64,000 nucleotides of DNA from Lonepinella koalarum (lineage in GTDB: Bacteria > Pseudomonadota > Gammaproteobacteria > Enterobacterales > Pasteurellaceae). Numbering within the stretch: position 1 is the stretch's first letter; every line of letters starts with the position of its first letter. Below are positions 9,520 to 60,556 of this stretch, piece by piece. The notes below the pieces were generated by a model. It was not told the DNA's origin. It did not search any database and saw nothing but the letters and a program-made list of their open reading frames with translations. The translations under genes and the position numbers were made by a program. The DNA lies in assembly GCF_004565475.1 (NCBI RefSeq), contig NZ_SRHX01000010.1, forward strand, positions 1 to 64,000. The letters are read 5' to 3'.

Positions 9520-9536
9520 CAGAGAACAAATATAAA

Positions 9537-42096: not shown

Positions 42097-42127
42097 AAAT
42101 ATAAACACATTTTATTTTTATATAAGA

Positions 42128-42170
42128 GGGATAAAATCTTAACATCAATAAAAGATTTTATCCCTTTTCT
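42128..42170 (+). terminator. terminator between the fusion regulator and the UPF0261 gene
   Basis: GGGATAAAATCTT (42128-42140) pairs with AAGATTTTATCCC (42152-42164): a perfect 13-bp stem followed by TTTTCTTTT. It separates the regulator from the 42210-44281 operon, which therefore needs its own promoter or antitermination. The 39 bases after it are too short to hold an obvious sigma-70 promoter plus operator. Confidence 0.85.
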
Positions 42171-42209
42171 TTTAAGTAAATTAGCTTTCAGCCAAAGGAG
42201 AGTTGCTCT

Positions 42210-43433
42210 ATGAAAACTATCGCAATCGCAGGAACTTTTGATACAAAAGGTACAGAATTTTTGTATGTTAAAAGTCTAGTGGAACAATTAGGGTTTAAAC
42301 CTTTTATGATCCATACAGGGGTATTTGAGCCTGATTTTGAAGTGGATATAACTAATAAGGATATTGCACAGCACGCAGGTTCTGATATTGCAGATATTGT
42401 AAGAAAAAAAGATCGAGCATTTGCTACCGAGATATTGTCTAAAGGTATGGAAATTCTTGTGCCTAAACTTTATGCAGCAGGTGAGTTTGATGGTATTATC
42501 TCTTTTGGTGGATCGGGTGGTACATCGTTAGTAACACCAGCGATGCGAGCCTTACCTATTGGGGTACCTAAGGTAATGGTTTCAACTATGGCATCGGGTA
42601 ATGTTGCACAATATGTAGGAGCTAGTGATATTGTTATGATCCCTTCAATTGTAGATGTTGCAGGACTTAATCAAATTTCTAAAACTATTTTTAGAAATGC
42701 TATCTTAACTATTGCAGGAATGGTAGGACTTAAAGATCAATTAAAAGGCGATTTAGAACAGAGTAAACCGCTTATTGCTGCAACCATGTTTGGTGTGACC
42801 ACACCTTGTATCAATTATGCTAAAAATTATCTTGAACAACGTGGTTATGAAGTTTTAGTCTTTCACGCTACTGGCACAGGTGGGAGAACCATGGATAGCT
42901 TAATTAGTACTGGTTTTTTTAAAGGTGTATTAGATTTAACTACAACAGAATGGTGTGATGAGATTGTCGGTGGTGTATTAAATGCCGGACCAAATCGTTG
43001 TGAAGCGGCAGCTAAACATGGCGTTCCACAAGTGATGTCTGTTGGAGCGTTGGATATGGTTAATTTTGGACCTTTTGATACTATACCGAATTGTTTCAAA
43101 GATCGCCTATTTTACCGCCATAATCCAACGGTTACTTTAATGCGAACCACTGAACAAGAAATTATCCAAGTGGGTAACAAATTAGTTGAAAAATTAAATA
43201 TGTCATCACGCAAAACTATTTTAATGTTACCACTACAAGGTCTTTCATCTATTGATGCCGAAAACCAAATTTTTGAAGGGATTAATGAACGAAAAGCTTT
43301 ATTTGATACCTTGAAGAATGGCGTAAATCCATCGGTTGTTGAAGTCGTTGAAATGAATAATCACATCAATGATCAAGTTTTTGCTGAAACTGCAGCACAA
43401 AAACTTATTGAATTAATAAACTCATCAAATTAA
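42210..43433 (+). CDS. UPF0261 / Tm-1-like ATP-binding domain protein
   Basis: The 407-residue protein shows UPF0261 features: N-terminal IAGTFDTKGTEFLYVKSLVE (residues 5-24), the glycine-rich nucleotide-binding-like ISFGGSGGTSLVTPAMRALP near 94-113, and a second domain from about 190 with HATGTGGRTMDSL near 220. It resembles the N-terminal half of tomato Tm-1 (family knowledge). Its biochemical function is not established; a strong AAAGGAG site precedes it. It is 17 bases upstream of the TIM-barrel gene, clearly one operon. Confidence 0.85.
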   Translation: MKTIAIAGTFDTKGTEFLYVKSLVEQLGFKPFMIHTGVFEPDFEVDITNKDIAQHAGSDIADIVRKKDRAFATEILSKGMEILVPKLYAAGEFDGIISFGGSGGTSLVTPAMRALPIGVPKVMVSTMASGNVAQYVGASDIVMIPSIVDVAGLNQISKTIFRNAILTIAGMVGLKDQLKGDLEQSKPLIAATMFGVTTPCINYAKNYLEQRGYEVLVFHATGTGGRTMDSLISTGFFKGVLDLTTTEWCDEIVGGVLNAGPNRCEAAAKHGVPQVMSVGALDMVNFGPFDTIPNCFKDRLFYRHNPTVTLMRTTEQEIIQVGNKLVEKLNMSSRKTILMLPLQGLSSIDAENQIFEGINERKALFDTLKNGVNPSVVEVVEMNNHINDQVFAETAAQKLIELINSSN

Positions 43434-43450
43434 ATCTAGGAGATTCCACT

Positions 43451-44281
43451 ATGAATAGAATGACTCGTACAGAAATTATGGCAAAATTCAGAAATGAAGT
43501 TGCTAATGGTAAAATTCTTGTTGGTGTAGGTGCGGGCACTGGTATTACTGCTAAGTGTAGTGAAAAAGGTGGTGCAGATATGCTGATTATTTATAACTCT
43601 GGTCGTTTTAGAATGGCTGGACGTGGTTCGTTATCTGGTCTTTTAGCATATGGCGATGCTAATAAAATTGTACAAGAAATGGGTGCAGAAGTCCTCCCTA
43701 TTGTAAAAGATACGCCTGTGCTTGCCGGGGTTTGTGGGACAGATCCATTCCGTGTTATGGATTTATTTTTAAAACAATTAAAAGAGCAAGGCTTCAATGG
43801 CGTTCAAAACTTTCCTACGGTCGGTTTAATTGACGGTAAATTTCGTGCTAATTTAGAAGAAACGGGTATGGGCTATGGTTTAGAAGTGGAAATGATCCGT
43901 GAAGCTCATAAATTAGATATGCTCACTTGTCCTTACGTTTTTGACGCAGAACAAGCGGCAGCAATGGCAGAAGCAGGGGCAGATATTTTGGTTGCACATT
44001 TAGGCTTAACAACAAAAGGTTCAATTGGTGCGGAAACTGCATTAACCCTTGATGATTGTTGTGAAATTATCCGAGAAATTATTAGTGCAGGCAGAAAAGT
44101 AAATCCGGAAATTCTTGTAATTTGCCATGGCGGACCTATTGCAGATCCAGAAGATGCGGAATATGTAATTAAAAAAGTCCCTGAAATTGACGGTTTCTTT
44201 GGCGCATCATCAATTGAGCGTTTAGCATCTGAGCGTGGAATGACAACTCAAACTGCGGCTTTCAAAGCGATTAAAAAATAA
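43451..44281 (+). CDS. PEP-hydrolase-like TIM-barrel protein (Tm-1 C-terminal type)
   Basis: The 276-residue TIM barrel has GAGTGITAKCSEKGGAD near 27-43, FRMAGRGSLSG near 52, NFPTVGLIDGKF near 118, and AHLGLTTKGSIGAE near 185. It belongs to the PEP_hydrolase family (PF09370 from memory) that forms the C-terminal half of plant Tm-1 proteins. In bacteria it commonly follows a UPF0261 gene, as here. Its substrate is unknown. The fusion regulator at 40900 carries a diverged copy. It is followed by a terminator. Confidence 0.85.
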   Translation: MNRMTRTEIMAKFRNEVANGKILVGVGAGTGITAKCSEKGGADMLIIYNSGRFRMAGRGSLSGLLAYGDANKIVQEMGAEVLPIVKDTPVLAGVCGTDPFRVMDLFLKQLKEQGFNGVQNFPTVGLIDGKFRANLEETGMGYGLEVEMIREAHKLDMLTCPYVFDAEQAAAMAEAGADILVAHLGLTTKGSIGAETALTLDDCCEIIREIISAGRKVNPEILVICHGGPIADPEDAEYVIKKVPEIDGFFGASSIERLASERGMTTQTAAFKAIKK

Positions 44282-44542: not shown

Positions 44543-45592
44543 TTATTTGAGAGCCTCCTGATCTTCTTTGCTTATTTTAGTCTCACAAAAATGAATTTGT
44601 TGTTCAAACTTGGTTAACCATTTTTTACCATCTTCATTTGCTTTATTTAGATAATTATCTCGTATTGGCATCGTAGCCTTTTTAAAGGCTTCTTTTTCTT
44701 CTGTTGTTGGATTGTATATCTTTCCACCAGCTTTTTTGAATTCTTCATAAGCATTAAATTCTTGCCACTTAGGATAGGATCTTAAATATTGATTTTGTGC
44801 AATAACAGCGTCTAGGATCACTTTTTTCAGATTATCTGGTAATGAATTAAATTTGTCATTATTCATTAACCAAGCTCCTCCCATATAAGCATGTCCATCT
44901 AATGTTATATGTTTAAGGCTTTCATGAAATTTCATCTGAACAATGTCTACAATACCATTTTTGGTACCATCTACCATCCCTGTTGATAGAGCAGTATAAA
45001 CTTCGGGCCAAGCAATAGGAGTTGGTGCGCCACCTAATGTTTTTACTAATTCCTGTTGTATTGCAGCTGGAACCGTTCTTAATTTAAGACCTTTTAGATC
45101 TTCTGGTTTTTGAATTACTTTTTTGGTTGTAGCAAAATTACGCCATCCTCCCGAGTTTGAAATCATCATTAAACGTAGATTTTGCGTTTTTCCTAATATT
45201 CCTTCTCGAACTTCGGCGATAAAATCTTGATTATCATACACACATTCCGCAACACGATCATTCGGTAATAAATAGGGCAAATCGAAGCTTTCTATAGATT
45301 GCCAGTAATTAGCTAACTCAGGAACTGTCGTTTGAAAATAATCAAACATTCCTGACTGAACACCCGCCAAACATTCTTTGGCATTACCACAAAGTTGTCC
45401 GCTAGGATAAATTTCAACAGAAATCTCACCATTTGAATGAGATTCAGCTATATTTTTAAAAACTAATAATGATTGATAATTATAACTGTCTAAATTTGTC
45501 ACAATAGGAACAGTCAATTTATATTGTGCTGCCTGAGCTGCTCCGATAGTTAATAAAAATGTACTGATTAAAATTGATTTTTTAATTTTCAT
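44543..45592 (-). CDS. TRAP transporter substrate-binding protein (DctP family)
   Basis: The 349-residue periplasmic protein has a signal peptide (residues 1-21, ending AAQAAQY) and the DctP fold, with the ligand-clasp Arg in the conserved LKGLKLRTVPAAIQ segment near 158-171. It is the last gene of a Q-M-P operon. Genomic context next to csqR and yihV suggests sulfoquinovose or its glyceride as ligand (inference). TRAP systems for other sulfonates, such as dihydroxypropanesulfonate and isethionate, are known. C4-dicarboxylate or sialic acid binding cannot be excluded by sequence reading. Confidence 0.88.
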   Translation of the reverse strand: MKIKKSILISTFLLTIGAAQAAQYKLTVPIVTNLDSYNYQSLLVFKNIAESHSNGEISVEIYPSGQLCGNAKECLAGVQSGMFDYFQTTVPELANYWQSIESFDLPYLLPNDRVAECVYDNQDFIAEVREGILGKTQNLRLMMISNSGGWRNFATTKKVIQKPEDLKGLKLRTVPAAIQQELVKTLGGAPTPIAWPEVYTALSTGMVDGTKNGIVDIVQMKFHESLKHITLDGHAYMGGAWLMNNDKFNSLPDNLKKVILDAVIAQNQYLRSYPKWQEFNAYEEFKKAGGKIYNPTTEEKEAFKKATMPIRDNYLNKANEDGKKWLTKFEQQIHFCETKISKEDQEALK

Positions 45593-45658
45593 AATAATGT
45601 CCTCGCGATTGATAAAAATTATTAATTAATGGAAATGGATAATATTTTTTATTTGATA

Positions 45659-46948
45659 TTACATTAATCCTAAAAGTTGTGGTAAACCAGTAACAAAAAT
45701 AGGAAAGAATGATATTAAGAAAATAATTAAAAATTCAATAAATAAGAACGGTAGAATTGCTTTTGATATTTTCTGCAATGGCACGCCAGATACACCTGAT
45801 GCGACAAACAATACCAACCCCATTGGAGGCGTTGCTAAACCTATAGATAAATTAGAAACCATAACCACACCAAAGTGAACAGGATCGATTCCTACATTCG
45901 TCATAATAGGGGCTAAAATTGGCGCAAAAATTAATATGGCAGGACCCGCGTCTAAAAACATACCAACGATAAATAAAAAGATATTAACGATAAAGAATAA
46001 AAGATATTTATTATCAGTGATTGAATACAAGAAAGATGTCACATGGTTTGCAATTCCGGATAAACTTACCGCAGAAGCAAATCCACTTGCCGCGGCAACA
46101 ATGATCAGTATAGCGGCTGCATTTACACTTACTCTAACAAACATCGGATAAACATCTTTTAGCTTTAAGTTTTTCATAATGAAAACAGATAAAATTAATG
46201 CATAGAATACGGCCACAGCAGCGGCTTCTGTCGGAGTAAATATTCCACCATAAATTCCCCCAAGGATAATTACAGGGGTAAGTAATGGTAATATTGCCAT
46301 TTTAAATCCGGCACGTCTTTCCACACTAGAAGCTCGTGCAAATTGTTGAACTTGTGGGTATTTTCTAATTTGGTATCTATTTACTAGCATTAATCCAATA
46401 CAAAGGATGATTCCTGGCACTACTCCACCCATAAACATAGCTGCAACAGATGTATTCATTACAAAAGCATAGATCAACATTATTCCACTAGGTGGAATAA
46501 TTGTTCCTAGAACCGTCGCGGCTGCAGTTAAAGCGGCAGCATAAGTTCTGTCATATTTATAACGTTCCATTTCAGGAATTAACATTTTTCCAATCGCAGA
46601 CGTTGCTGCAACCGATGATCCTGTTAAGGCGCCAAATAAAGTAGATGCTAATATAACAACATGTCCCAATCCACCCTTTAAGTGCTGAACCATTGTTTGA
46701 GAGAAAGTAATAATACGATTTGTTATACCACCATTTACCATAAATTCACCAGCTAGCATAAAAAATGGCAATGCTAGGAGTAAGAAACTATCTAACCCTG
46801 AATATAATCTTTGATAAAGCATGTTTATAAACAATACTTTTTCATCTTGAAATAATGCGATTATGGGGGATAATCCTAAGGCAAACAAAACAGGTACACC
46901 GATTAACAAAAATATTAAAAAATATAAAATAAAAACTGGAGATACCAT
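45659..46948 (-). CDS. TRAP transporter large permease (DctM family)
   Basis: The 429-residue inner-membrane protein has about 11-13 hydrophobic segments, with the DctM features LFGALTGSSVAATSAIG near 111-127, PPSGIMLIYA near 153 and GLATPPMGLVLFVASGVSG near 373. It starts at ATG 46948 (AGAGGG 8 bases before); a TTG two codons earlier is less likely. It translocates the substrate delivered by DctP, driven by the sodium gradient. It is separated from dctQ by 14 bases. Confidence 0.92.
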   Translation of the reverse strand: MVSPVFILYFLIFLLIGVPVLFALGLSPIIALFQDEKVLFINMLYQRLYSGLDSFLLLALPFFMLAGEFMVNGGITNRIITFSQTMVQHLKGGLGHVVILASTLFGALTGSSVAATSAIGKMLIPEMERYKYDRTYAAALTAAATVLGTIIPPSGIMLIYAFVMNTSVAAMFMGGVVPGIILCIGLMLVNRYQIRKYPQVQQFARASSVERRAGFKMAILPLLTPVIILGGIYGGIFTPTEAAAVAVFYALILSVFIMKNLKLKDVYPMFVRVSVNAAAILIIVAAASGFASAVSLSGIANHVTSFLYSITDNKYLLFFIVNIFLFIVGMFLDAGPAILIFAPILAPIMTNVGIDPVHFGVVMVSNLSIGLATPPMGLVLFVASGVSGVPLQKISKAILPFLFIEFLIIFLISFFPIFVTGLPQLLGLM

Positions 46949-46962
46949 AACCAACGCCCTCT

Positions 46963-47475
46963 TTAATTAATTTTTTGATAATTTATGAAGTTATTTAATT
47001 CAGAAATGATTTTTTGCATTACTTGTAATAGGGTTATACAAAATAGTAATGGTGGAACTAGATAAATGTAATACATTTTGAAAGGAAGACTATTAGCCAT
47101 TACGTTTCCTTTAAGAAAGAAAACCCAACCAAAATAAATCCATACTACTATAGTTAATAATGCAAAAATATGAACAAAAAACATTACCAAGTGAGATATT
47201 CTTTTACCTTTAATTTTCTCTACCAAAAAAGTCATCGCTATGTTTTGATCTGTTAAATAGATTAAAGGTAAACATAAATATGTCATATAAATCATCAAAT
47301 AACTTGATAACTCATCCGTCCAGGTTAAGGGGGAACCCAATAAATAACGGTAGAAAACTTGTAGTAAAACGATAGATGTCATCATTATCAATAGTAATCC
47401 AGCTATTCTTTTTCCCGTGTTTGCAATAGGTTCGTTTACTTTTGCAAGTATGTTTTCTATGTTCTTTAATATCAT
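46963..47475 (-). CDS. TRAP transporter small permease (DctQ family)
   Basis: The 170-residue protein has four membrane segments; the family motif TWTDELSSYLMIYMTYL lies in the second segment. I choose ATG 47475, six bases after AAGGAG; the ATG at 47481 abuts the ribosome-binding site, and a longer frame to 47523 has no site. It is the first gene of the dctQ-dctM-dctP operon. It sits downstream of a CRP-like site. Confidence 0.88.
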   Translation of the reverse strand: MILKNIENILAKVNEPIANTGKRIAGLLLIMMTSIVLLQVFYRYLLGSPLTWTDELSSYLMIYMTYLCLPLIYLTDQNIAMTFLVEKIKGKRISHLVMFFVHIFALLTIVVWIYFGWVFFLKGNVMANSLPFKMYYIYLVPPLLFCITLLQVMQKIISELNNFINYQKIN

Positions 47476-47548
47476 TGACATCTCCTTGTTTAGGTCGTTA
47501 AACGAGATTTTGATGTTAGGCATATTACCATTAATTTTGATAAAAAAA

Positions 47549-47564
47549 AGTGATGGAGATCACA
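47549..47564. promoter_or_regulatory. CRP site upstream of the TRAP operon
   Basis: AGTGA-N6-TCACA matches nine of ten consensus positions. It lies about 81 bases (centre) before the dctQ ATG. It suggests that import is under the same catabolite control as the sulfoquinovose enzymes. Confidence 0.7.
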
Positions 47565-47690
47565 AAAAAACAAATTTGTGTAATTTTTTTTTCTTTTTTT
47601 TTCGGTTTTATGCGTTTTTTAGAGGCGATTTGGAGAAAGGATGGAGGAAAGATGTATGGGGGGATAAAAGATCACAAAATCTTGCAGATC

Positions 47691-47792
47691 TTACATCGCT
47701 TGTTTAAATAAACTGTAATATTCCCATTCGAAACGTTTATCAGCCTTATTTCTTGCATGATTAGCAAAATGGTAGTTCTTGATGCCATCAAA
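47691..47792 (-). pseudogene. coding-like remnant in the dctQ-csqR gap
   Basis: On the minus strand a 33-codon open stretch ending in TAA translates to a protein-like C terminus (contains NYHFANHARNKADKRF and ends EYYSLFKQAM). A weak hairpin (AAGAT/ATCTT, 47660-47676) follows. In a second frame directly upstream, codons are open for about 60 residues to 47957. Together they look like a decayed, frameshifted gene between csqR and dctQ. I do not recognise the family. Chance open frames in AT-rich DNA cannot be excluded. An inverted repeat (GAACAAT/ATTGTTC) is at 47801-47821. I see nothing else in the 47565-47967 gap. Confidence 0.35.
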
Positions 47793-47967
47793 CTACAAAG
47801 GAACAATAAACCAAATTGTTCTTGATAATACAAGGTATTTTACCATCACTTTCAGTACAAAATGAAAGACATTGATGATATATGGTATAAAATAATGCGG
47901 ATATTTCCAATACAGTTATAAGGTTTATATATTGGGTAATATTTGGTAAAAATTTATTGATTTAATC

Positions 47968-48768
47968 TTAAATATGTTTTTTTACAGTATGAAGTTCTAC
48001 TTTTTTTTCTCTTATTATTCGCATTATTTCTGTTGGCGGTTTTTCATCAGTAAATAATACCATGTTGTTTCTCAGTGTGTCTATTTCAACGGCGGCAGAT
48101 GTATGGAATTTGGAGTGGTCTGCGGCGATTAAAACTTTCTTAGAATTATGTAACATCGCTTTCACAACAGCCACCTCGTTTATATCGAAGTCAAGCAAAG
48201 TGCCATCGTTTGCAATTGCGCCAAGACTCGTAATCAGATAGTCAGCTCTAAAGTGATTAATAAAAGAAACAACATTCGGACCAATAATACCACCGTTATG
48301 AGAGCGCAACATTCCACCCACCGTGATTACTTCAAAATTTTTGTTTATATATAATAGGTTAGCCACTCTTAAACTGTTCGTAATAATACGTAGATTATTT
48401 TTCGATTCTAGCGCTCTTGCTATAAATTCTACAGTGGTACCAATCGTGATAAATAACGTAGAGCCATCTAAAATGTAATTTGATATTTCATTTGCGATCA
48501 ACGTTTTTTCTTCAGTATGTATCGTTTCCCGTATTGAAAATTCTGTATTCGTAATGCTAGATACTCTACCAGCTCCACCATGATGGCGGGAAATAAAACC
48601 ATTTTGACTAAGTGTTTTTATGTCTCGTCTAATTGTTTGTGTTGTAACACCCAGAGTGTGAGCTAATTCTTCATTACTTATATAACCATTAGATTGCACT
48701 AAAGAAATTAATTTATCGTGTCTGGGGTTGCCAGTTAACTCGGTGTATTTAATAGTATTAATCGTCAT
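47968..48768 (-). CDS. csqR: DeoR-family regulator of sulfoquinovose catabolism
   Basis: The 266-residue DeoR regulator has an N-terminal winged helix (residues 12-70; ELAHTLGVTTQTIRRDIKTL) and a sugar-phosphate-isomerase-like sensor (ITIGTTVE, NSLRVANLLY, IIGPN, ADHSKFH). It follows E. coli CsqR (YihW) closely, including the unusual TELTGNPRHD start and SRHHGGAGR. In E. coli the protein represses the sulfoquinovose operons and is released by pathway ligands. It starts 3 bases past the yihV stop, so the two are translationally coupled. Confidence 0.92.
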   Translation of the reverse strand: MTINTIKYTELTGNPRHDKLISLVQSNGYISNEELAHTLGVTTQTIRRDIKTLSQNGFISRHHGGAGRVSSITNTEFSIRETIHTEEKTLIANEISNYILDGSTLFITIGTTVEFIARALESKNNLRIITNSLRVANLLYINKNFEVITVGGMLRSHNGGIIGPNVVSFINHFRADYLITSLGAIANDGTLLDFDINEVAVVKAMLHNSKKVLIAADHSKFHTSAAVEIDTLRNNMVLFTDEKPPTEIMRIIREKKVELHTVKKHI

Positions 48769-48771
48769 ATT

Positions 48772-49680
48772 TCACTTTAGTAAATTGTTATTTTTTGATT
48801 CCAGAAAAATATTCACTTGTTCTAAATTAGGAATACCCTCTCTCCCACCTGGTGCTTCACATTTTAACGCTGCTACAGCGCTAGCGAATTCTACTAGTTT
48901 ATCACTAGAATATCCATTAGCTAATGCAAAAGCAAATGCACCATGAAATACATCTCCAGCTCCTGTCGTATCAATAACTTGGACCTTAAAACCATTATGA
49001 TGTTTGATTTGATTATTTTCAAGCCAGTTACAGCCTTTTTCACCAAGAGTGACGTACACATTGCCTTTACAAATATTATTTGCATAATCTAGTGCAGTAT
49101 CAATATTTTTATATTTTGACATCTTTAATAAACCAGGTTCAGAAAATACAGCAAAATCAGCAAGTTTTACAAGAGAAATGATACTTTGTGGTGTTATATC
49201 TGCATCTAATACAGTCGTTATATTTAGCTCTTGAGCTTTTTTTAAGCAATACAATGTTCCTTTATGCCAGCGAACATCACATAAAATGATATTATATTGT
49301 GAAAAATCTATAGAATTTAACCATTTTGTGTTTTCTAATAAGTCAGGGCTTGGGTAGTTACATATTAATCTTTCCCCCATATTATCAACAAAAATAGCGG
49401 ATTGTGATGATTTTGCATTTTTGTATATTTTTGTTGTTTTAGTATTCACACCATAGGTTTCTAACTCAGACAGGAGTGACTTTCCCGTAAAATCATCCCC
49501 CACTCTACCTATAAAATCCACTTTTCCGCCTAATTTGGCGATAGTGACGGCAGCGGTAGCAGCAGGTCCACCACCGACTTCTTTGTAATGATGGGATACA
49601 TATTTACCACTCTGGGAAAACATCTTTTCAATATAGTAGATTCTATCTTGTACAGCGATTCCTACACAAGCAATTTTCAT
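48772..49680 (-). CDS. yihV: 6-deoxy-6-sulfofructose kinase
   Basis: The 302-residue PfkB-family kinase has EVGGGPAATAAV at 34-45 and the catalytic DTTGAGDVFHGA with Asp243. Residues K26, N108 and R137 align with those I recall as the sulfonate contacts of E. coli YihV (K27, N109, R138). It phosphorylates sulfofructose at O-1. It is divergent from yihU across a 146-base promoter region with a CRP site, and coupled to csqR. Confidence 0.94.
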   Translation of the reverse strand: MKIACVGIAVQDRIYYIEKMFSQSGKYVSHHYKEVGGGPAATAAVTIAKLGGKVDFIGRVGDDFTGKSLLSELETYGVNTKTTKIYKNAKSSQSAIFVDNMGERLICNYPSPDLLENTKWLNSIDFSQYNIILCDVRWHKGTLYCLKKAQELNITTVLDADITPQSIISLVKLADFAVFSEPGLLKMSKYKNIDTALDYANNICKGNVYVTLGEKGCNWLENNQIKHHNGFKVQVIDTTGAGDVFHGAFAFALANGYSSDKLVEFASAVAALKCEAPGGREGIPNLEQVNIFLESKNNNLLK

Positions 49681-49747
49681 GTTACCTCCAATTCTGTTTG
49701 ATATTTAGTTGTTAAAATGAATTCTACACTAAAAAAAATTTTAAAAA

Positions 49748-49763
49748 TGTGATCTAGATCACT
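49748..49763. promoter_or_regulatory. CRP site in the yihV/yihU divergent promoter
   Basis: TGTGA-TCTAGA-TCACT matches nine of ten half-site positions, and the central bases equal the strongest known CRP consensus. It sits between the two divergent operons, 67 bases from the yihV ATG and 63 bases from the yihU ATG, and can control both. Confidence 0.82.
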
Positions 49764-49826
49764 TTACTTAAATAAAAAATACAAATATGATAAAAAAAAG
49801 ACAAAAATGATCAAAAAGGAAATGAT

Positions 49827-50714
49827 ATGGCACATATAGCTTTTATAGGATTAGGGCAAATGGGGACCCCGATGGCAACTAATTTACTCCATAAAGGGCA
49901 TCATTTGAGAGTTTATGATATAAATCCTACAGCCTCTGAGAAGCTTAATGCTCTGGGTGCTTATGTAGCAACATCACCTAAAGATGCTGTTTTAGGGTGT
50001 GAGTTTATAATTACAATGCTACCAAATGGAAAGTTAGTTAATGACGTTATTTTTGGTAATAATGGTGCTATAGAATCTATTAATAGAAATTCTATTGTTA
50101 TTGATATGTCAACAATTCATCCTTTAGAAAGTGACGATATACGTAACAGGCTACGATCTGAAAATATAGAATTTATGGATGTTCCTGTAGGAAGAACTTC
50201 TGATCACGCTATTTCGGGGACATTACTCATTCTAGCAGGGGGAACAAAAGAACAAATAGAAAAAGCATCTCCTATTTTACTATGCATGGGGAATAAAATT
50301 GTTAATACTGGGGGACCAGGTAATGGTATTCGAGTGAAATTAATTAACAATTTTATGAGTATAGCATTAAATGCACTCTCTGCTGAAGCCACAGTGTTGT
50401 GTGAATCTTTGAATTTACCATTAGAAAAGGCATTGGAAGTAATGGAGGGGACGCCTGCTAATAAAGGACATTTCACCACAACTTGGCCGAATAAAGTATT
50501 AAAAGGAGATTTAACGCCTTCCTTTATGATTGATTTAGCCCATAAAGATCTCAGTTTAGCGTTAGATGTGGCTAATCAATTGAATGTTCCTTTGTTTATG
50601 GGAGCCGCTTCTAGAGAGATTTATAGTCAAGCGAGAGCTACAGGAAGAGGAAAACAAGATTGGACGGCTATTTTAGAACATTTGCGTAATTGTTCAGGAT
50701 TAAAAGATGATTAA
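49827..50714 (+). CDS. yihU: 3-sulfolactaldehyde reductase
   Basis: The 295-residue beta-hydroxyacid dehydrogenase has the N-terminal Rossmann motif [10 protein letters not shown] (8-17), a substrate-binding R123 in DVPVGRTS, and the catalytic K171 in GIRVKLINN, at the same positions as E. coli YihU. It reduces 3-sulfolactaldehyde with NADH to 2,3-dihydroxypropane-1-sulfonate. First gene of the plus-strand operon; AAGGA lies before the ATG. Confidence 0.95.
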
Positions 50715-50724
50715 GGAAAAAATT

Positions 50725-51600
50725 ATGTTAAGTTACACAATTAAAGATATTGCAAGAGCGTCTGGTGGCTTTGCTATGCTAGCGGTGGATCAACGAGAAG
50801 CGATGAGAAATATGTTTGCTTCTGCTGGTGTAAAACAGCCTATTGCCGATCAGGTATTAACCGATTTTAAAGTGAAAGCGGCGCAAATCCTGTCACCTTA
50901 TGCTTCGGCAGTGTTAGTTGACAATCAATTCTGTTATCAACAAATTGTCGCCCAAAAAGCAATATCGCCAGTCTCATCGATGATTGTGGCGATGGATAAA
51001 TTTATTCCGGGTAATGGTATTCCAGTTGATCAAGTTGAATTAGATAAAGACATTGATCCCTATGAAGTGAGGGCAAATGGTGGTAAAGCCCTTAAATTAT
51101 TAGTTTTATGGCGAGAGGATGAAGAGGCGGATCAACGTCTTGAGATGGTTAATGATTTTATTAAAAGTTGTCGTTCGGCTGGGTTAGTCAGCATTATTGA
51201 ACCTGTTGTGAGACCCCCACGCACAGGAGATAAATTTGATCGAGAAAAAGCCATTCTTTGTGCAGCCAAGGAATTAGGTGATTGCGGCGCTGACTTATAT
51301 AAAGGTGAGATGCCGTTGTTTGGTCAAGGCGAGGCTTCAACGCTATTAAAGGCAACGAAAGCGTTGAATGATCAAATTAATATGCCGTGGGTGATTCTTT
51401 CTTCTGGAGTGGATCCTAATTTGTTTTGTCGTTCAGTACGAATTGCTATGCAAGCAGGTGCATCAGGATTTTTGGCAGGGAGAGCGGTTTGGTCTTCGGT
51501 GATTGGCTTACCTGATACCGAATTAATGCTTAAAGATATTTCCGCGCCTCGTTTACAACATCTTGGTCGTATAGTTGATGAGATGATGGCTACAAGATAA
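50725..51600 (+). CDS. yihT: 6-deoxy-6-sulfofructose-1-phosphate aldolase
   Basis: The 291-residue class I aldolase has the Schiff-base Lys193 in ADLYKGEM, at the E. coli YihT position, and VDQREAMR near 21. It splits sulfofructose-1-phosphate to DHAP and 3-sulfolactaldehyde. Start ATG 50725 has AAGGA 7 bases upstream; ATG 50707 overlaps the yihU end and has no site. It follows yihU by 10 bases. Confidence 0.95.
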
Positions 51601-51654
51601 GCAATAAATATTTTATAAACAGTTACTTATTCATTCTTTCTTGTGAGATGTTAT

Positions 51655-53670
51655 ATGAAACTAAATCAAATTGAAAATGGATTTGAATTATTCTATAAGC
51701 AAAAAAGTATATTGTGCCATACCACGCAACATCCTGCTTTTTTTGTGGGTATTGGAGAAGAGAAAATAGCCAGTTATCGTGGTAATTTTCAAATAGAAGA
51801 TAGGATAATTGAAAGATTACCACTCAAATATAGCACAATCAAAGAGAATACTATTTATCTCTCTTATGATGAGAAAACACCTTTTCAATTAAAAATACAG
51901 ATTTCTCCCCGTTCTGATCGGGATCTTATTTTAACTATTCAGTCAATGAACCCATCACTTAATCGATTTTGGTTGAGACTTGTGGCAGATGAAAATGAGA
52001 AAGTTTGGGGCGGTGGGGAGCAGATGTCATATTTCAATATGAAAGGAAGACATTTTCCCTTATGGACATCTGAACCGGGTGTTGGTCGAGATAAAACCAC
52101 GGAAATAACGTTCTTGTCAGATAAATATCATAAAGCAGGTGGTGATTATTATCATACCAATTATCCACAGCCAACCTTTATTTCTTCTCAACATTATGCT
52201 TGCCATATCAATAGTACGGCTTATTCTGAATTTGATTTCCGTCATACGGATTATCATGAATTACACAGTTGGGAAATACCTAAATCGATAGAAATATATA
52301 CTGGCGATACTTTTTTAACCATCGTTGAGAAATTGAGCTTGCGTTTTGGCAGACAACCTAAATTACCCGAGTGGATTTATAATGGCGTGATACTAGGGTT
52401 AAAAGGTGGGGAAAAAAATTCATTTTCTCGATTAGACAATGCCCGAGCTAAAGGTGTTCCAGTGGCAGGAATTTGGTGTGAAGACTGGGCTGGCGTTAGA
52501 CAAACAAGTTTTGGTAAACGCTTGTTTTGGGATTGGAAATGGAACCCTAAGCGTTATCCCAACTTAGCTAAAAAGATCAAGCAATTAAAACAACAAAATA
52601 TTCGTTTCTTGGCTTATGTCAGTCCTTATTTATGCGATGATGGTGAACTTTTTCCCATAGCGAAAGAAAAAGGATTATTTGCCTTAAATGCGCAAAAAGA
52701 AGTGGCGTTAGTGGATTTTGGTGAATTTTATTGTGGTGTACTGGATTTCACCAATCCAAAAACAAGGGAATGGTTTAAACAGGAAATTATTCAAAAGAAT
52801 ATGCTTGATCTTGGTGTATCTGGCTGGATGGCTGATTTTGGTGAATACCTACCAACAGATGATCTTTACTTAGCAAATGGGATGGATGCCAAAATTATGC
52901 ACAATGCTTGGCCGCCACTTTGGGCTAGGGTTAATGCTGAAGCCGTTGAAGAAAGGGCGTTGACAGGCGAAATCTTATTCTTTATGCGAGCAGGTTTTAC
53001 AGGTTCTCAACAGTATTGTCCGATGTTATGGGCAGGTGATCAATGTGTCGATTTTTCACGTCATGATGGATTAAATACGGTTATTTGTGGTGCTTTATCA
53101 TCTGGATTATTGGGCAATGCCTATCATCACAGTGATATTGGCGGCTATACTAGTTTATTTGGTCATCGGAGAACAAAAGAAGTTTTTGAACGCTGGGTTG
53201 ATATGGCGGCATTTACCCCAATGATGCGAACCCATGAAGGAAATCGCCCAGATGAAAACTTCCAGTTTGACCAAGATAGTAGTACCATCGCCCATTTAGC
53301 CAGAATGACTAAAATTTATTGTCATTTAGTTCCTTACTTAAAATCCTTAGTCGATGAAGCCTATACCAAGGGCTATCCTGTTCAAAGACCCTTATTTGTG
53401 CATTTTGAACAGGATATCAATACTTATGATATTCAGGATCAATATATGTATGGTGCTGAGCTTCTGGTGGCACCAGTGCATAAACAAGGGGTAACAGAAT
53501 GGCGGGTTTATTTACCATCAGGGGAAACGTGGATAAGTGTTTGGACGGCTCAAGAAATTCAAGGTGGACAAACAATTACGGTTCCAGCCCCCATAGGCAA
53601 ACCGCCATTGTTTTATCGAAAAAATAGTCAGTGGACAGATTTGTTTGCAGCTATTGCTGATATTTCATAA
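51655..53670 (+). CDS. yihQ: sulfoquinovosidase (GH31)
   Basis: The 671-residue alpha-glycosidase has the catalytic nucleophile D394 in WMADFGEYLP and acid/base D462 in WAGDQ. The sulfonate-recognition residues are K250, E276, R289, W292 and Y498, corresponding to E. coli Q262, Q288, R301, W304 and Y508. So it has the KERWY set known in Agrobacterium-type enzymes, not the E. coli QQRWY set. It releases sulfoquinovose from sulfoquinovosyl glycerol or diacylglycerol. No signal peptide is seen, so it acts in the cytoplasm and the glycoside must be imported. Start ATG 51655 is preferred over GTG 51643. Confidence 0.94.
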   Translation: MKLNQIENGFELFYKQKSILCHTTQHPAFFVGIGEEKIASYRGNFQIEDRIIERLPLKYSTIKENTIYLSYDEKTPFQLKIQISPRSDRDLILTIQSMNPSLNRFWLRLVADENEKVWGGGEQMSYFNMKGRHFPLWTSEPGVGRDKTTEITFLSDKYHKAGGDYYHTNYPQPTFISSQHYACHINSTAYSEFDFRHTDYHELHSWEIPKSIEIYTGDTFLTIVEKLSLRFGRQPKLPEWIYNGVILGLKGGEKNSFSRLDNARAKGVPVAGIWCEDWAGVRQTSFGKRLFWDWKWNPKRYPNLAKKIKQLKQQNIRFLAYVSPYLCDDGELFPIAKEKGLFALNAQKEVALVDFGEFYCGVLDFTNPKTREWFKQEIIQKNMLDLGVSGWMADFGEYLPTDDLYLANGMDAKIMHNAWPPLWARVNAEAVEERALTGEILFFMRAGFTGSQQYCPMLWAGDQCVDFSRHDGLNTVICGALSSGLLGNAYHHSDIGGYTSLFGHRRTKEVFERWVDMAAFTPMMRTHEGNRPDENFQFDQDSSTIAHLARMTKIYCHLVPYLKSLVDEAYTKGYPVQRPLFVHFEQDINTYDIQDQYMYGAELLVAPVHKQGVTEWRVYLPSGETWISVWTAQEIQGGQTITVPAPIGKPPLFYRKNSQWTDLFAAIADIS

Positions 53671-53748
53671 CTAAATTGATTGAATTTTGTTTTGTTAAAG
53701 TTCAATTAAACTTTGAGAGTTTTATAAATTAAATAGTAGGTGAACATT

Positions 53749-54993
53749 ATGAAATGGATAAACACAAGAACGCATAATCATTGGTTAGAAAATGAAACTG
53801 ATCGTATTTTTGAGTTCGGCTATAAATCTGTAGTCCCCACAGGTTTTGGTTGGATTGGAAACAACGGTAATATACGTAAGGAGATGGGAACGCAACTTTG
53901 GATTACGGCAAGAATGCTGCATGTGTATTCATTAGCGACGTTAATGGGAAGACCTGGGGCATATAAATTAGTAGAACATGGCATCAATTCATTATTAAAT
54001 GGCGCTTTACATGACCCTATTTATGGTGGTTGGTATGCCAATGTGGATGATACGGGGGTGATTGATAGAACAAAACAAGGGTATCAACATTTTTTTGTCT
54101 TATTAGGTGCTGCGAGTGCAACGGCAACAGGGCACCCTAAGGCAAAAAAATTACTTGATAAGGCGATAGACATTATTGAAAAATATTTCTGGAGTGAAAA
54201 AGAACAAATGTGTCTTGAGTCTTGGGATGAAACATTTAGCCAGACAGAAGACTACCGCGGTGGCAATGCCAATATGCACGCAGTGGAAGCTTTTCTTATT
54301 GTGTATGATATAACAAAAGATAAAAAATGGTTAGATAGGGCACTCAGAATTACGTCTGTCATTATCCATGATGTGGCGAGAAATAATCACTATCGTGTAA
54401 ATGAACATTTTGATTCTCATTGGCAACCATTACCAGATTATAATAAAGAAAATCCTGCCAGCCATTTCCGAGCTTATGGTGGTACGCCAGGACATTGGGT
54501 TGAATGGGGCAGGCTAATTTGTCACCTTAGAGCCACCTTAATATCCATCGGAGAACATGCACCAGAGTGGTTATTGGAGGATGCTAAAAATTTATTTGCC
54601 GCTGGAATAAGAGACGCATGGTCGGTGGACGGTGCTGAAGGTTTTGTTTATACCGTGGATTGGAATGGTAAACCGGTTGTTCGGGAAAGAATCCGCTGGG
54701 TTATCGTTGAAGCAATCGGCACAGCTTATGCTTTATATACGACAACAGGAGAATCGCAATACGAGGAATATTATCAACGTTTTTGGGATTACAGTCGTTG
54801 TTATTTGATGGATTATGAAACAGGATCTTGGTGGCAAGAATTAGACGCTAACAATAAAGTATCCAATAAAGTATGGGACGGTAAACAAGATATTTATCAT
54901 TTAATGCACTGTTTATTAATTCCGCGCTTGCCTTTAACACCAGGCTTAGCACCAGCACTTGCAGCAGGATTATTAGATAAAAATGTAAAATAA
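53749..54993 (+). CDS. yihS: sulfoquinovose isomerase (AGE family)
   Basis: The 414-residue (alpha/alpha)6 barrel enzyme is very close to E. coli YihS (413). Catalytic histidines appear as H177 ([10 protein letters not shown]), H249 (GGTPGHW) and H384 (DIYHLMH), one residue off the E. coli numbering. It converts sulfoquinovose to sulfofructose and can equilibrate to sulforhamnose. Start ATG 53749 has AGGTGA upstream. It is 78 bases after yihQ. Confidence 0.95.
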
Positions 54994-55002
54994 GAAAATA
55001 TA

Positions 55003-55047
55003 GGCATTCTAATTGAAACGACGGTAAAAAGAGGAATGCTTTTTTAT
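55003..55047 (+). terminator. hairpin after yihS (terminator or attenuator)
   Basis: GCATTC (55004-55009) pairs with GAATGC (55034-55039), extended by G-U pairs, with a 24-base loop and a T6 tract. It would end or attenuate the yihU-T-Q-S transcript before the epimerase gene. Confidence 0.6.
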
Positions 55048-55076
55048 TTTAGATAGAAATGTTGAGATATACAGTG

Positions 55077-56144
55077 ATGAATATAAAAATTGAGACTTTT
55101 GGTCAGGTCAATGGGGAGCGAGTTGATTTAATTCATTTATCTAACCAAAATGGGATGTTAGTTAAAATAACCAATTATGGTTGCATTGTTACATCTATTG
55201 AGACTCAAGATTGTCAGGGTCACTTTAAAGACATTGTCTTAGGTTTTGATACCTTAAATGAATATTTACAGGGACACCCTTTTTTTGGTGCTGTGGTCGG
55301 AAGGTATGCTAATCGTATTAATCATGGTTTATTTAAAATAAAAGACCAAATATACCAACTTGAAAAGAATGAATTATCGACTTCGCAACATATCCATGGC
55401 GGAAGTGTCGGATTTGATAAATATATTTGGAATTACAGTATAGAGAAAAATGAAACGCTAATCATGATTCATTTTTATCGTCTCTCGCCAAATGGCGAAT
55501 CAGGCTACCCAGGTAATTTAAATATAACTCATAGCATAGGTTTAGATGAACAAAATCAGCTACATTTTTATTTTACTGCCACCACAGATCAAACAACAAT
55601 TATTAACTTAACTAATCATAGCTATTATAATTTATCAGGCCATGATCAAGGTTACATTTGTCATCATTATTTGAAAATTTTTAGCGATTATTATACCCCT
55701 GTTGCTCAGAATATGATCCCTACAGGAGAAATCTTATCCGTTAAACACACCGGTTTAGATTTTAGAAAGGCAATCAAGATTGGGGATAATATGGATAAAT
55801 TGAAAGATAAAACCCTAGATCATAATTTTATCTTAAATGGCGAAGTTGCCTATGATGAGTATCATAAAGCGGCTGAACTTTATGATCCTGAAAGTGGGCG
55901 ATTTCTAACGGTCATCACTACTCAGCCAGCCATTCAAGTATATAATGCCGCTAAGTTATCAAATAAGTGCTGGATGGGTAAAAACCAATACAAATATGAA
56001 TCTTTTGCAGCAATTTGTTTAGAAACGCAACATTTCCCTGATAGTCCTAATCATCGTCATTTTCCCAACACACTACTCGAACCAGATCAAATATACAAAC
56101 AAAAAACAATTTATCAGTTCAGTGTAAAAGATAATCAGGGATAA
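55077..56144 (+). CDS. GalM-type aldose 1-epimerase, putative sulfoquinovose mutarotase
   Basis: The 355-residue protein is a standard GalM-family mutarotase: VVGRYANRI near 75, the catalytic His pair in HIHGG and LTNHSYYNLSG, and the catalytic Glu in CLETQHFPDSPN. It is longer than, and distinct from, E. coli YihR (308 residues). By context it would speed interconversion of sulfoquinovose anomers released by YihQ; a role on ordinary hexoses is possible. The start (ATG 55077 or 55059) is uncertain, as neither has a clear ribosome-binding site. It is 6 bases before the TauE gene. Confidence 0.85.
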   Translation: MNIKIETFGQVNGERVDLIHLSNQNGMLVKITNYGCIVTSIETQDCQGHFKDIVLGFDTLNEYLQGHPFFGAVVGRYANRINHGLFKIKDQIYQLEKNELSTSQHIHGGSVGFDKYIWNYSIEKNETLIMIHFYRLSPNGESGYPGNLNITHSIGLDEQNQLHFYFTATTDQTTIINLTNHSYYNLSGHDQGYICHHYLKIFSDYYTPVAQNMIPTGEILSVKHTGLDFRKAIKIGDNMDKLKDKTLDHNFILNGEVAYDEYHKAAELYDPESGRFLTVITTQPAIQVYNAAKLSNKCWMGKNQYKYESFAAICLETQHFPDSPNHRHFPNTLLEPDQIYKQKTIYQFSVKDNQG

Positions 56145-56150
56145 TATAAA

Positions 56151-56882
56151 ATGGAAATTATTTTAATGATATCAATGGTTATTGGATTAGGTAGTTTTAC
56201 TCAAGGGCTTACAGGATTTGGATTAGCTTTAGTTTCAGTGCCATTACTATCATTGTTTATAGATGTAAAATTAGCGGTACCTTTGGCAGGCATTCTGGGT
56301 TGGTTAGTAACCTTTCCAATAGTATGGAAAATGCGATCTCATATACAATATAAGACGGCTTTAATTTTATTTATAGGTTCTTTACCCGGTTCATTTATTG
56401 GTGCGAGTTTATTAAAGCATCTTCCATCAGAAATAATTTTAATTATAATGGGGCTAATATTAATTATTTCAGGCATATATTCTTTCCGCTCAAAAACATC
56501 TTTATTTAAATCAACATCACCAGTGGCTAGTGCTGGTATTGGATTTTTCTCTGGTGCTTTAGGTGCGAGTGTAGGGGAACCAGGTCCACCAGTTATCGCA
56601 TATACATCAATGTTACCATGGACTCATGATCAAACAAAATCTACTTTAGTGTTTTTCTTTATGTTACAGATGATAGGTGCAATTATTGGCTTTTGGTATA
56701 AAGGATTACTCACTGATGATGTGTTTTCTTATGTTATTAAAGCTATTCCAGCATTTATTATTGGTATGCTTTTAGGTATGTTTAGCTATCAACTATTGCA
56801 TAAGTATAATATTAACTATCATAGAGTGATTTATTCGTTATTGATAATCATTGGTTTTGTATTAATAACTAAGAGCTTATAA
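56151..56882 (+). CDS. TauE/SafE-family permease, putative organosulfonate exporter
   Basis: The 243-residue inner-membrane protein has seven or eight hydrophobic segments with the family's two repeats: GSFTQGLTGFGLALVSVPLL at 15-34 and GFFSGALGASVGEPGPPV near 129-146. This family exports sulfite, sulfolactate and other sulfonates. Here it likely exports 2,3-dihydroxypropane-1-sulfonate, filling the place of E. coli YihP (inference). It is the last gene of the block, 239 bases before rplN. Confidence 0.82.
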   Translation: MEIILMISMVIGLGSFTQGLTGFGLALVSVPLLSLFIDVKLAVPLAGILGWLVTFPIVWKMRSHIQYKTALILFIGSLPGSFIGASLLKHLPSEIILIIMGLILIISGIYSFRSKTSLFKSTSPVASAGIGFFSGALGASVGEPGPPVIAYTSMLPWTHDQTKSTLVFFFMLQMIGAIIGFWYKGLLTDDVFSYVIKAIPAFIIGMLLGMFSYQLLHKYNINYHRVIYSLLIIIGFVLITKSL

Positions 56883-57103: not shown

Positions 57104-57493
<390 letters not shown>

Positions 57494-57506
57494 GGGAGAG
57501 TGAGAA

Positions 57507-58375
<869 letters not shown>

Positions 58376-58387
58376 GGCAGGTTATCA

Positions 58388-58693
58388 ATGGCTAAACAAT
58401 CAATGAAAGCACGCGATGTAAAACGCGTTAAATTGGCTGAGAAGTTCTACGCTCAACGTGTAGAATTGAAAAAAATCATTTCTGACGTCAATTCTTCTGA
58501 TGAAGATCGTTGGAGTGCGGTGTTAAAGTTACAAACTTTACCGCGTGATTCAAGCCCAAGTCGCCAACGTAACCGTTGTCGCCAAACTGGTCGTCCTCAC
58601 GGCGTATTAAGTAAGTTTGGTTTGAGCCGTATTAAGGTCCGTGAAGCAGCCATGCGTGGTGAGATCCCTGGTCTTAAAAAAGCAAGTTGGTAA
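58388..58693 (+). CDS. rpsN: 30S ribosomal protein S14
   Basis: The 101-residue protein is the long, zinc-independent form (no CXXC pairs), ending in [23 protein letters not shown]. It lies in the 30S head. It is 12 bases after rplE. Confidence 0.98.
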
Positions 58694-58730
58694 TGTACCA
58701 CTTTATATTGGAATCGGAGAATAAAGCACA

Positions 58731-59123
58731 ATGAGTATGCAAGATCCAATCGCAGATATGTTGACCCGTATTCGTAACGGTCAAGCTGCGAACAAAGTTG
58801 CGATCAGTATGCCTTCATCCAAGCTAAAAGTGGCTATTGCCAATGTGTTAGCGGAAGAAGGTTACGTTGAAAGCGTAAAAGTTTTAGAAGGTGTAAAACC
58901 TGAATTGGAAATTACATTAAAATATTTCCAAGGTAAACCAGTTGTAGAAAGTATCCAACGTGTAAGCCGTCCGGGTCTTCGTATTTACAAACGTAAAGAC
59001 GAATTACCAAAAGTTATGGGTGGTTTAGGTGTTGCAGTAGTGTCTACATCTAAAGGTGTGATGACTGACCGTGCGGCTCGTCAAGCGGGCTTAGGCGGCG
59101 AAATCATCTGTTATGTGGCTTAA
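58731..59123 (+). CDS. rpsH: 30S ribosomal protein S8
   Basis: The 130-residue protein has [20 protein letters not shown] at its start and the C-terminal [20 protein letters not shown] signature. It binds helix 21 of 16S rRNA and in E. coli represses the spc operon. It lies 37 bases after rpsN. Confidence 0.98.
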
Positions 59124-59140
59124 TTAAGAGGTAGGAAAAA

Positions 59141-59674
59141 ATGTCTCGTGTAGCAAAAGCTCCCGTCACTGTTCCTGCCGGCGTTGAGGTTAAACTTAAC
59201 GGTCAGCTATTAACAGTGAAAGGTAAGAATGGTGAGTTAACTCGCACTATTCATGACTCAGTCGAAGTTAAACAAGATAATGGTGCATTAACATTCGCAC
59301 CACGTGATGCTAGTGTTGGTGCAAATGCACAATCAGGTACTGCACGTGCGTTGGTTAATGCAATGGTTATTGGTGTTACCGAAGGTTTCACAAGAAAATT
59401 ACAACTCGTCGGTGTGGGTTATAGAGCACAAGTAAAAGGCAACGTAGTTGGCTTAAGCCTTGGTTTTTCACATCCAGTAGAACACACTTTACCCGCAGGG
59501 ATTACTGCAGAATGTCCATCTCAAACCGAAATCGTGCTGAAAGGTGCTGACAAACAATTAATTGGTCAAGTGGCTGCAGATATTCGTGCATATCGTAAAC
59601 CTGAACCTTATAAAGGTAAAGGGGTTCGTTATGCAGACGAAGTTGTACGTACTAAAGAAGCGAAGAAAAAATAA
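59141..59674 (+). CDS. rplF: 50S ribosomal protein L6
   Basis: The 177-residue protein has two related RNA-binding domains and ends with the L6 signature [20 protein letters not shown]. It sits near the sarcin-ricin loop. It lies 17 bases after rpsH. Confidence 0.98.
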
Positions 59675-59687
59675 TTAAGGTAACACT

Positions 59688-60556
<869 letters not shown>

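Follow-up and report, generated by a model that had tools for sequence, protein, structure and literature searches.

The window analysed here is the whole 64,000-nucleotide stretch at positions 1 to 64,000 of Lonepinella koalarum contig NZ_SRHX01000010.1 (Pasteurellaceae), and our subject is a group of 11 open reading frames (ORFs) at 44543-56882 which, by its gene content, forms a complete locus for the sulfoglycolytic Embden-Meyerhof-Parnas (sulfo-EMP) degradation of sulfoquinovose (SQ), a sulfur-containing sugar of plants. All 11 ORFs are intact and lie at the coordinates given in an earlier model-made reading of this DNA (the original prediction). Its claim of a complete locus is borne out by the presence of csqR, yihV, yihU, yihT, yihQ and yihS, whose products are 49-75% identical to those of E. 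coli K-12 (Table 1). The remaining genes encode a tripartite ATP-independent periplasmic (TRAP) transporter, a GalM-type epimerase and a TauE/SafE membrane protein. What appears to be new is the pairing of sulfo-EMP enzymes with a putative TRAP importer, in a pathway of otherwise known kind. Of most use is the finding that this TRAP accompanies SQ genes in different bacterial families and classes, although the enzymes found with it vary.

When the enzymes were compared by phmmer with the sequences of solved structures, the best relatives were the yih enzymes themselves: 7ag7 for YihT, 7ag6 for YihV, 2rgk and 7ag4 for YihS, 6sm7 for YihU, and 5ohy, 5ohs and 5aed for YihQ. Scores dropped from 458 bits to 58 for YihT (the first entry not named YihT or sulfofructosephosphate aldolase), from 379 to 164 for YihV, from 756 to 144 for YihS (the next family) and from 423 to 156 for YihU; for YihQ, the entries named YihQ or sulfoquinovosidase, along with two GH31 proteins named only as glycosidases, scored 776-936 bits and the next 156. 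The original prediction had also placed catalytic residues at their E. coli positions. This stood for the Schiff-base lysine K193 of YihT, for K171 and R123 of YihU and for the three histidines of YihS, all of which are conserved, but the YihS numbers were off by one (H176/H248/H383 in the K-12 record, NP_418316.4). Also conserved are D405, D472, R301, W304 and Y508 of YihQ and K27, N109, R138 and D244 of YihV, which we take to be functional residues (in YihQ, for example, catalytic and sulfonate-binding). Two departures were seen in the window, YihQ Q288 to E and YihS R238 to H. The checked residues are kept in the eight other Pasteurellaceae loci described below and in two loci from elsewhere in the order (L060 and L074), except that YihV N109 is S in L074; across these 11 loci, Q288 is E in 10/11, and R238 is H in 10/11 and Q in one.

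The transport genes differ from those of E. coli. The TRAP components DctP, DctQ and DctM all score above their Pfam cut-offs, while yihO, yihP and ompL gave zero tblastn matches in the window. The best YihO-like protein of the same genome (2.51 Mb, 47 contigs, 99.9% complete) is only 30% identical and is encoded on another contig. It had been predicted that the E. coli transporters and porin are missing, that TRAP and TauE/SafE proteins stand in for the transporters, and that a GalM-type protein replaces YihR; the gene content supports all three statements. The GalM-type protein matches YihR over only 76 amino acids (33% identity), which falls short of full-length similarity, and scores 291 bits against the Leloir GalM model (below the cut-off of 398) and 270 bits against PRK11055 (above the cut-off of 240).

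Table 1. Features of the sulfoquinovose locus in the window, with the evidence for each assignment.
Feature	Position	Strand	Assignment and evidence	Identity to E. coli K-12 (%)
trapP	44543..45592	-	TRAP periplasmic solute-binding protein, DctP family; Pfam DctP 214 bits; signal peptide by eye	
trapM	45659..46954	-	TRAP large permease DctM; TIGR00786 408 bits	
trapQ	46963..47523	-	TRAP small permease DctQ; Pfam DctQ 87 bits	
trapQ upstream region	47524..47967	-	CRP-like site TGTGATCTCCATCACT, 9/10 consensus positions, reached in 3/200 shuffles	
csqR	47968..48768	-	DeoR-family regulator	57
yihV	48772..49680	-	sulfofructose kinase; 7ag6 379 bits	59
yihV-yihU divergent promoter region	49681..49826	.	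CRP-like site TGTGATCTAGATCACT; like sites in 9/9 Pasteurellaceae loci	
yihU	49827..50714	+	sulfolactaldehyde reductase; NF012005 484 bits (cut-off 348); 6sm7; K171 and R123 conserved	65
yihT	50707..51600	+	class I sulfofructose-1-phosphate aldolase; 7ag7 458 bits; K193 equivalent is K199	71
yihQ	51643..53670	+	GH31 sulfoquinovosidase; 5ohy 936 bits; no signal peptide by eye	49
yihS	53740..54993	+	sulfoquinovose isomerase; 2rgk 756 bits	75
galM-type	55059..56144	+	aldose 1-epimerase, probably sulfoquinovose mutarotase; Pfam Aldose_epim 253 bits; in 9/9 Pasteurellaceae loci	
tauE	56151..56882	+	TauE/SafE (TSUP) membrane protein, probable sulfonate exporter; PF01925 98 bits (cut-off 32.6); in 9/9 loci	

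Within the Pasteurellaceae, YihS was found in 9/140 genomes, and all nine carry the same 11 genes within 12.0-12.3 kb; the co-occurrence of yihTUVQS with TRAP and TauE genes, for which a search of the family had been suggested, is thus complete (9/9). Three gene orders occur, in three genomes each, with the TRAP genes beyond csqR (the window, G088, G053), beyond tauE (G039, G031, G040) or between yihS and galM (G035, G036, G038). A trapM orthologue at 88-100% identity is present in exactly these nine genomes and in none of the other 131. Some DctM match exists in 121/140 genomes, and after the trapM orthologues the next among the matches listed is at most 43% identical (in some genomes the scoring covered only 12 of as many as 21 initial candidates). 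A chance neighbourhood of the TRAP and TauE genes was rejected on the strength of the nine loci in three orders and this identity gap of 88% vs 43%. The coincidence of YihS and trapM would have a probability of 2e-14 if genomes were independent. The 140 genomes are related, however, and contrasts within genera are therefore more telling: three genomes of genus g11 have the locus and G037 lacks it, G053 of g17 has it and G051, G052 and G054 lack it, and G031 of g7 has it and G030 lacks it.

Traces of loss are visible in one of these genera. The tauE gene was found in 11/140 genomes, namely the nine, G051, and G054, where it is a 74-residue fragment. In G054 a single deletion has removed almost all of the locus, taking most of trapP, all that lay between and the first two thirds of tauE, so that the final 27 residues of trapP now adjoin the final 74 of tauE. 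Its two longest flanks show about 82% identity to the corresponding pieces of its congener G053, which has the full locus. The deletion scar lies at 9527-9826 of the stretch taken from G054 (L037). In G051, tauE remains with a galM remnant near a contig end, adjoining an ORF taken by eye for the end of a transposase.

Beyond the family, one genome for each of 84,980 species was scanned with a trapM alignment and patterns for two conserved peptides, a search that covers close relatives only. It yielded 23 loci, with 22 trapM orthologues at 75-96% identity and one non-orthologue at 29%. All 22 orthologues adjoin catabolic genes, and 20 lie in sulfo-EMP clusters (7 Pasteurellaceae, 9 Vibrio, Alginatibacterium, Reinekea and 2 of the alphaproteobacterium Pseudovibrio). 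In the other two, L091 and L094, trapM is 75% identical and the stretch examined contains no yih gene but genes for a LysR regulator, a TauD-type dioxygenase and an aldo-keto reductase; this and all other absences in the wider loci apply to the stretch examined, mostly 20-21 kb. An additional TRAP sulfo-EMP locus was found on a Photobacterium replicon. In a class-level draw of 369 genomes, with up to four candidates scored per genome, only the window's own trapM was found at E 1e-150.

The species-wide scan, the order-level YihS search described next and the Photobacterium replicon together gave 18 non-Pasteurellaceae sulfo-EMP TRAP loci, each genome being counted once, although some are near-copies. 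All 18 have csqR, yihV, yihU and a class II aldolase, and none has yihT; a GalM-type gene is present in 17/18, yihS in 16/18 and yihQ in 13/18. Both Pseudovibrio loci lack yihS, and in L081 a fucose-isomerase-like ORF was seen by eye in its place. In 17 of the loci, csqR is 43-51%, yihV 49-53% and yihU 58-62% identical to the window. Because the TRAP itself served to find some of these loci, part of its constancy among them reflects selection. The original prediction held that the enzyme set is conserved and the membrane set modular. This is true against E. coli, where the membrane set is swapped, but not behind this TRAP, where YihT gives way to a class II aldolase in 18/18 loci, YihS is missing from 2/18, and two loci have only the dioxygenase and reductase.

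A sample drawn by YihS and not by TRAP was obtained from the order, where YihS was found in 18/394 genomes. In the stretches examined, nine of these 18 loci have the TRAP, nine have YihO/YihP-like proteins of the major facilitator superfamily (MFS), and none has both. In a tree of CsqR, YihV and YihU made by a quick method from 36 loci, the Pasteurellaceae group with the MFS loci of E. coli, its relatives and genome G381, whose MFS protein is 48% like YihO, and away from the Vibrio and Pseudovibrio TRAP loci. The tree requires a minimum of two changes of transporter, against a shuffled mean of 9.0 (0/500 shuffles were as low); the mutual exclusion of TRAP and MFS therefore rests on few independent events. 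CsqR, YihV and YihU of the window are closer to E. coli than to V. mediterranei (57/46%, 59/52% and 65/62%, respectively), while YihS (75/73%) and YihQ (49/50%) show no clear difference. From the tree and these identities it follows that the Pasteurellaceae locus pairs a regulator, kinase and reductase nearer to those of E. coli with TRAP, GalM and TauE proteins common to marine bacteria. A trapM tree with a paralogue outgroup was uninformative as to rooting, the outgroup branches being very long. In G381, the yih cluster (L060, 4185-14261) encodes enzymes 66-82% like those of the window, together with MFS proteins, dihydroxyacetone kinase and glycerol dehydrogenase, and TRAP, GalM and TauE were unmatched in the stretch examined. 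An SQ-inducible glycerol dehydrogenase and dihydroxyacetone kinase are described for Faecalicatena (PMC11659671).

In two Vibrio-group loci, L064 and L065, which are sulfo-EMP clusters, genes for a TauD-type dioxygenase and an aldo-keto reductase lie immediately behind trapP. The two proteins are 59% and 68-69% identical to the pair in L091 and L094. A dioxygenase, SqoD, and a reductase, SquF, have been described as a route from SQ to glucose, sulfo-ASDO (PMC12890257). If the pair found here belongs with SqoD and SquF, all these loci would have SQ or its glycoside as their common substrate. Six class-level homologues of the dioxygenase were found in 369 genomes, with a reductase neighbour in 5/6 and, in 4/6, a GH31 gene that is 25-32% like YihQ, a pattern no more than suggestive of SqoD; two plasmid matches are 30-32% identical, one of them annotated as trimethyllysine dioxygenase.

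Promoter-like sites point to shared regulation. Candidate CRP sites were scored against a 10-position consensus, with 200 shuffles per region. Every Pasteurellaceae yihV-yihU region (9/9) has a CRP-like site matching 8-9 of the 10 positions, a score reached by 1-11 of the 200 shuffles, and so have all 6 trapQ genes with an upstream region of their own (9-10 of 10; 0-3 of 200). In the three loci where trapQ follows close behind yihS, there is no site before trapQ and one of 8-9 positions before yihS (1, 28 and 1 of 200). With CRP-like sites before both promoters, the TRAP and enzyme genes of the Pasteurellaceae are probably under common catabolite control. The signal is weaker outside the family, 9/10 positions being reached in 9/16 trapQ upstream stretches and 7/16 yihV-yihU regions. 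Candidate CsqR operator repeats (6/9 yihV-yihU regions, 4/9 trapQ upstream regions) had no shuffle control and are not claimed.

The locus is flanked on the left by rpoB, rpoC and then a three-gene block, and on the right by rplN. The block, at 40900-44281, encodes a PEP_hydrolase-like domain fused to an AraC helix-turn-helix, a UPF0261 protein and a second PEP_hydrolase protein; membership of these genes in the locus was rejected, as none of the three was matched in the eight other SQ stretches. The gene for the second PEP_hydrolase protein (at 43451) has a homologue in 2/140 Pasteurellaceae, the window's genome included, and in the other (G040) it is likewise paired with UPF0261. At 57122-60041 the spc operon (from rplN) is separated from the S10 operon: rpsQ lies on a different contig from the spc operon in this genome, 42 kb off in the same-genus G088 and less than 2 kb off in seven other genomes. 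In G088, rpoC adjoins neither the spc nor the S10 operon part.

Taken together, the data make it probable that this is a sulfo-EMP locus built round a dedicated TRAP that imports SQ or sulfoquinovosyl glycerol, with TauE exporting a three-carbon (C3) sulfonate. TrapP would capture SQ or sulfoquinovosyl glycerol in the periplasm, and TrapQM would carry it inward, presumably on a sodium gradient, to judge by the TRAP family. Inside the cell, YihQ would free SQ from the glycoside and the GalM-type epimerase may interconvert the SQ anomers. YihS would then convert SQ to sulfofructose, YihV would phosphorylate it, and cleavage by YihT would give dihydroxyacetone phosphate and sulfolactaldehyde, which YihU would reduce to 2,3-dihydroxypropane-1-sulfonate for putative export by TauE. 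CsqR is predicted to repress the genes and cyclic AMP-CRP to activate them. The TRAP is tied to the pathway by the presence of trapM in 9/9 YihS genomes and 0/131 others, by the within-genus contrasts and by the 20/22 scan orthologues in yih clusters. SQ or its glycoside is favoured as the substrate because it would be common to loci with different downstream enzymes, including the two with dioxygenase and reductase only. Also in favour of this reading are the orthology and conserved residues of the enzymes, the alternation of TRAP and MFS in the order-level YihS loci, the single deletion of almost the whole locus in G054, the retention in TrapP of the Arg/Arg/Asn triad by which IseP binds sulfonate (PMC11668362), the precedent for TauE as a proposed exporter (PMC8873060) and the CRP-like sites at both promoters.

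Several observations weigh against this assignment. No outer-membrane protein is among the 11 genes, trapM and galM are each split over two frames in the same-genus G088, and outside the Pasteurellaceae tauE was found in only 8/18 sulfo-EMP TRAP loci and trapP in 17/18 (not in L072) in the stretches examined. TrapP R151, R172 and N212 are invariant in 27/27 orthologues; such an Arg/Arg/Asn triad is also usual in TRAP proteins that bind carboxylates, and so is not specific. The three residues align with R156/R177/N217 of the isethionate-binding IseP, which hold the sulfonate of isethionate (PMC11668362), and the equivalent of W200 is kept in the window and is Trp in 26/27 orthologues. In one pairwise alignment, however, five other IseP ligand contacts differ: D77 to A/G, S95 to T, N98 to E, Y153 to G and H244 to G. 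As the triad also serves carboxylates and these isethionate contacts differ, the pocket points to some acidic ligand that is not isethionate, without identifying it. The TrapP model has a mean predicted local distance difference test score (pLDDT) of 77, and parts of the pocket (148-150, 194-198 and 200-213) are of low confidence. A structural proof of the ligand failed on these weak pocket parts, Foldseek confirming the TRAP fold only. Cysteines 68, 74, 117 and 336 of TrapP are invariant in 27/27 orthologues and perhaps form disulfides.

Two alternatives change the role of one transporter each. The enzymes might act as described and the TRAP serve to import a different sulfonate, such as dihydroxypropanesulfonate, sulfolactate or isethionate, leaving SQ to enter by some other system. 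TRAP transporters for sulfonates are known, such as that of IseP (PMC11668362), and the isethionate-binding 8t9t is among the nearest solved relatives of TrapP, beside SiaP 4mmp. Yet YihU, the last enzyme of the pathway, makes dihydroxypropanesulfonate, and none of the 11 genes encodes a protein that would use up a C3-sulfonate brought in from outside. The same TRAP also lies next to a dioxygenase/reductase pair with no yih gene in the stretch examined, the TRAP loci showed no yihO/yihP-like gene, and the five differing contacts speak against isethionate; we regard this alternative as unlikely. Equally improbable is a TauE that exports sulfite rather than dihydroxypropanesulfonate, or that takes part in uptake. 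The TauE of Cupriavidus necator is a sulfite exporter according to the title of Weinitschke 2007 (cited in PMC8873060 and PMC12421959). A sulfite-releasing enzyme is, however, absent from the products of the 11 window genes, to which the search for one was confined, and neither of the two dioxygenase-only loci, possible sources of sulfite, has a TauE match in the stretch examined. It is very improbable that the locus is decaying or silent and a leftover without selective value, even though trapM and galM are each split into two pieces and frames in the same-genus G088 (L012), by decay or by sequencing errors, and the locus is deleted in G054, reduced to tauE and a galM remnant in G051 and present in only 9/140 genomes, since all 11 window genes are intact with conserved catalytic residues and CRP-like promoter sites occur in 9/9 loci.

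With SQ import by the TRAP preferred, the locus names a testable three-gene importer and shows the full set of sulfo-EMP genes in a further group, the Pasteurellaceae. TRAP and MFS systems would stand in for one another, and the candidate importer that replaces the E. coli-type transporters is of the binding-protein-dependent type and travels with SQ genes in several bacterial groups. A broader and more tentative proposal, to which we give somewhat less than even weight, is that these transporters form a distinct SQ-dedicated TRAP subfamily, a gateway to YihT-type sulfo-EMP, class II aldolase sulfo-EMP and O2-dependent dioxygenase/reductase chemistries. In L064 and L065, one TRAP appears to feed two of these routes, the one that cleaves a C-C bond and the one that uses the dioxygenase. 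If so, such a cell could remove the sulfonate from SQ when oxygen is present and, when it is absent, ferment SQ to dihydroxypropanesulfonate.

A search of the open-access literature found no link between SQ and the Pasteurellaceae. SQ combined with TRAP transporters gave only work on taurine metabolism among the matches listed, SQ combined with Actinobacillus only work on archaeal glycosylation, and in the few texts examined among the matches listed for sulfoglycolysis the word 'trap' never denoted a transporter. The nearest known system is the yih/csqR cassette of E. coli K-12 (ompL-yihOPQRSTUVW; PMC12608037), which has in common with the window the CsqR, YihV, YihU, YihT, YihQ and YihS orthologues and the divergent yihV/yihU pair; the window has TRAP PQM for YihO, TauE for YihP, a GalM-type protein for YihR and no OmpL. 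A sulfo-EMP cluster in Vibrio and the interchange of enzymes among sulfo-EMP clusters were already known (PMC9594981, PMC10991401), as was the SQ gene content of the V. mediterranei group (PMC12542681). The Vibrio, Alginatibacterium, Reinekea and Pseudovibrio clusters share with the window the TRAP (trapM 73-84%), YihU, YihV and CsqR, mostly the GalM-type protein and YihS, and partly TauE, and differ in having a class II aldolase and no YihT and, in Pseudovibrio, no YihS. The isethionate transporter IseP/IseQM (8t9t; PMC11668362) resembles the TRAP of the window as a sulfonate-substrate TRAP with the Arg/Arg/Asn triad, and differs from it in that TrapP is 27% identical in the structural match and departs from the isethionate contacts at the five positions given above. 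The dioxygenase and reductase that accompany the TRAP in four loci of the Vibrio group are likened to SqoD/SquF of sulfo-ASDO (PMC12890257) by their TauD and aldo-keto reductase domains only, and such a pair is not present in the window. ABC importers occur in other SQ pathways (PMC11659671, PMC12133307). In the sulfo-EMP cluster of Arthrobacter, TauE, present in one strain, has been proposed as an exporter (PMC8873060). This system is alike in its non-MFS, binding-protein-dependent importer and differs in having an ABC rather than a TRAP transporter and a sulfolactaldehyde dehydrogenase rather than a reductase; because Arthrobacter does without them, YihO and YihP are not required for the sulfo-EMP pathway.

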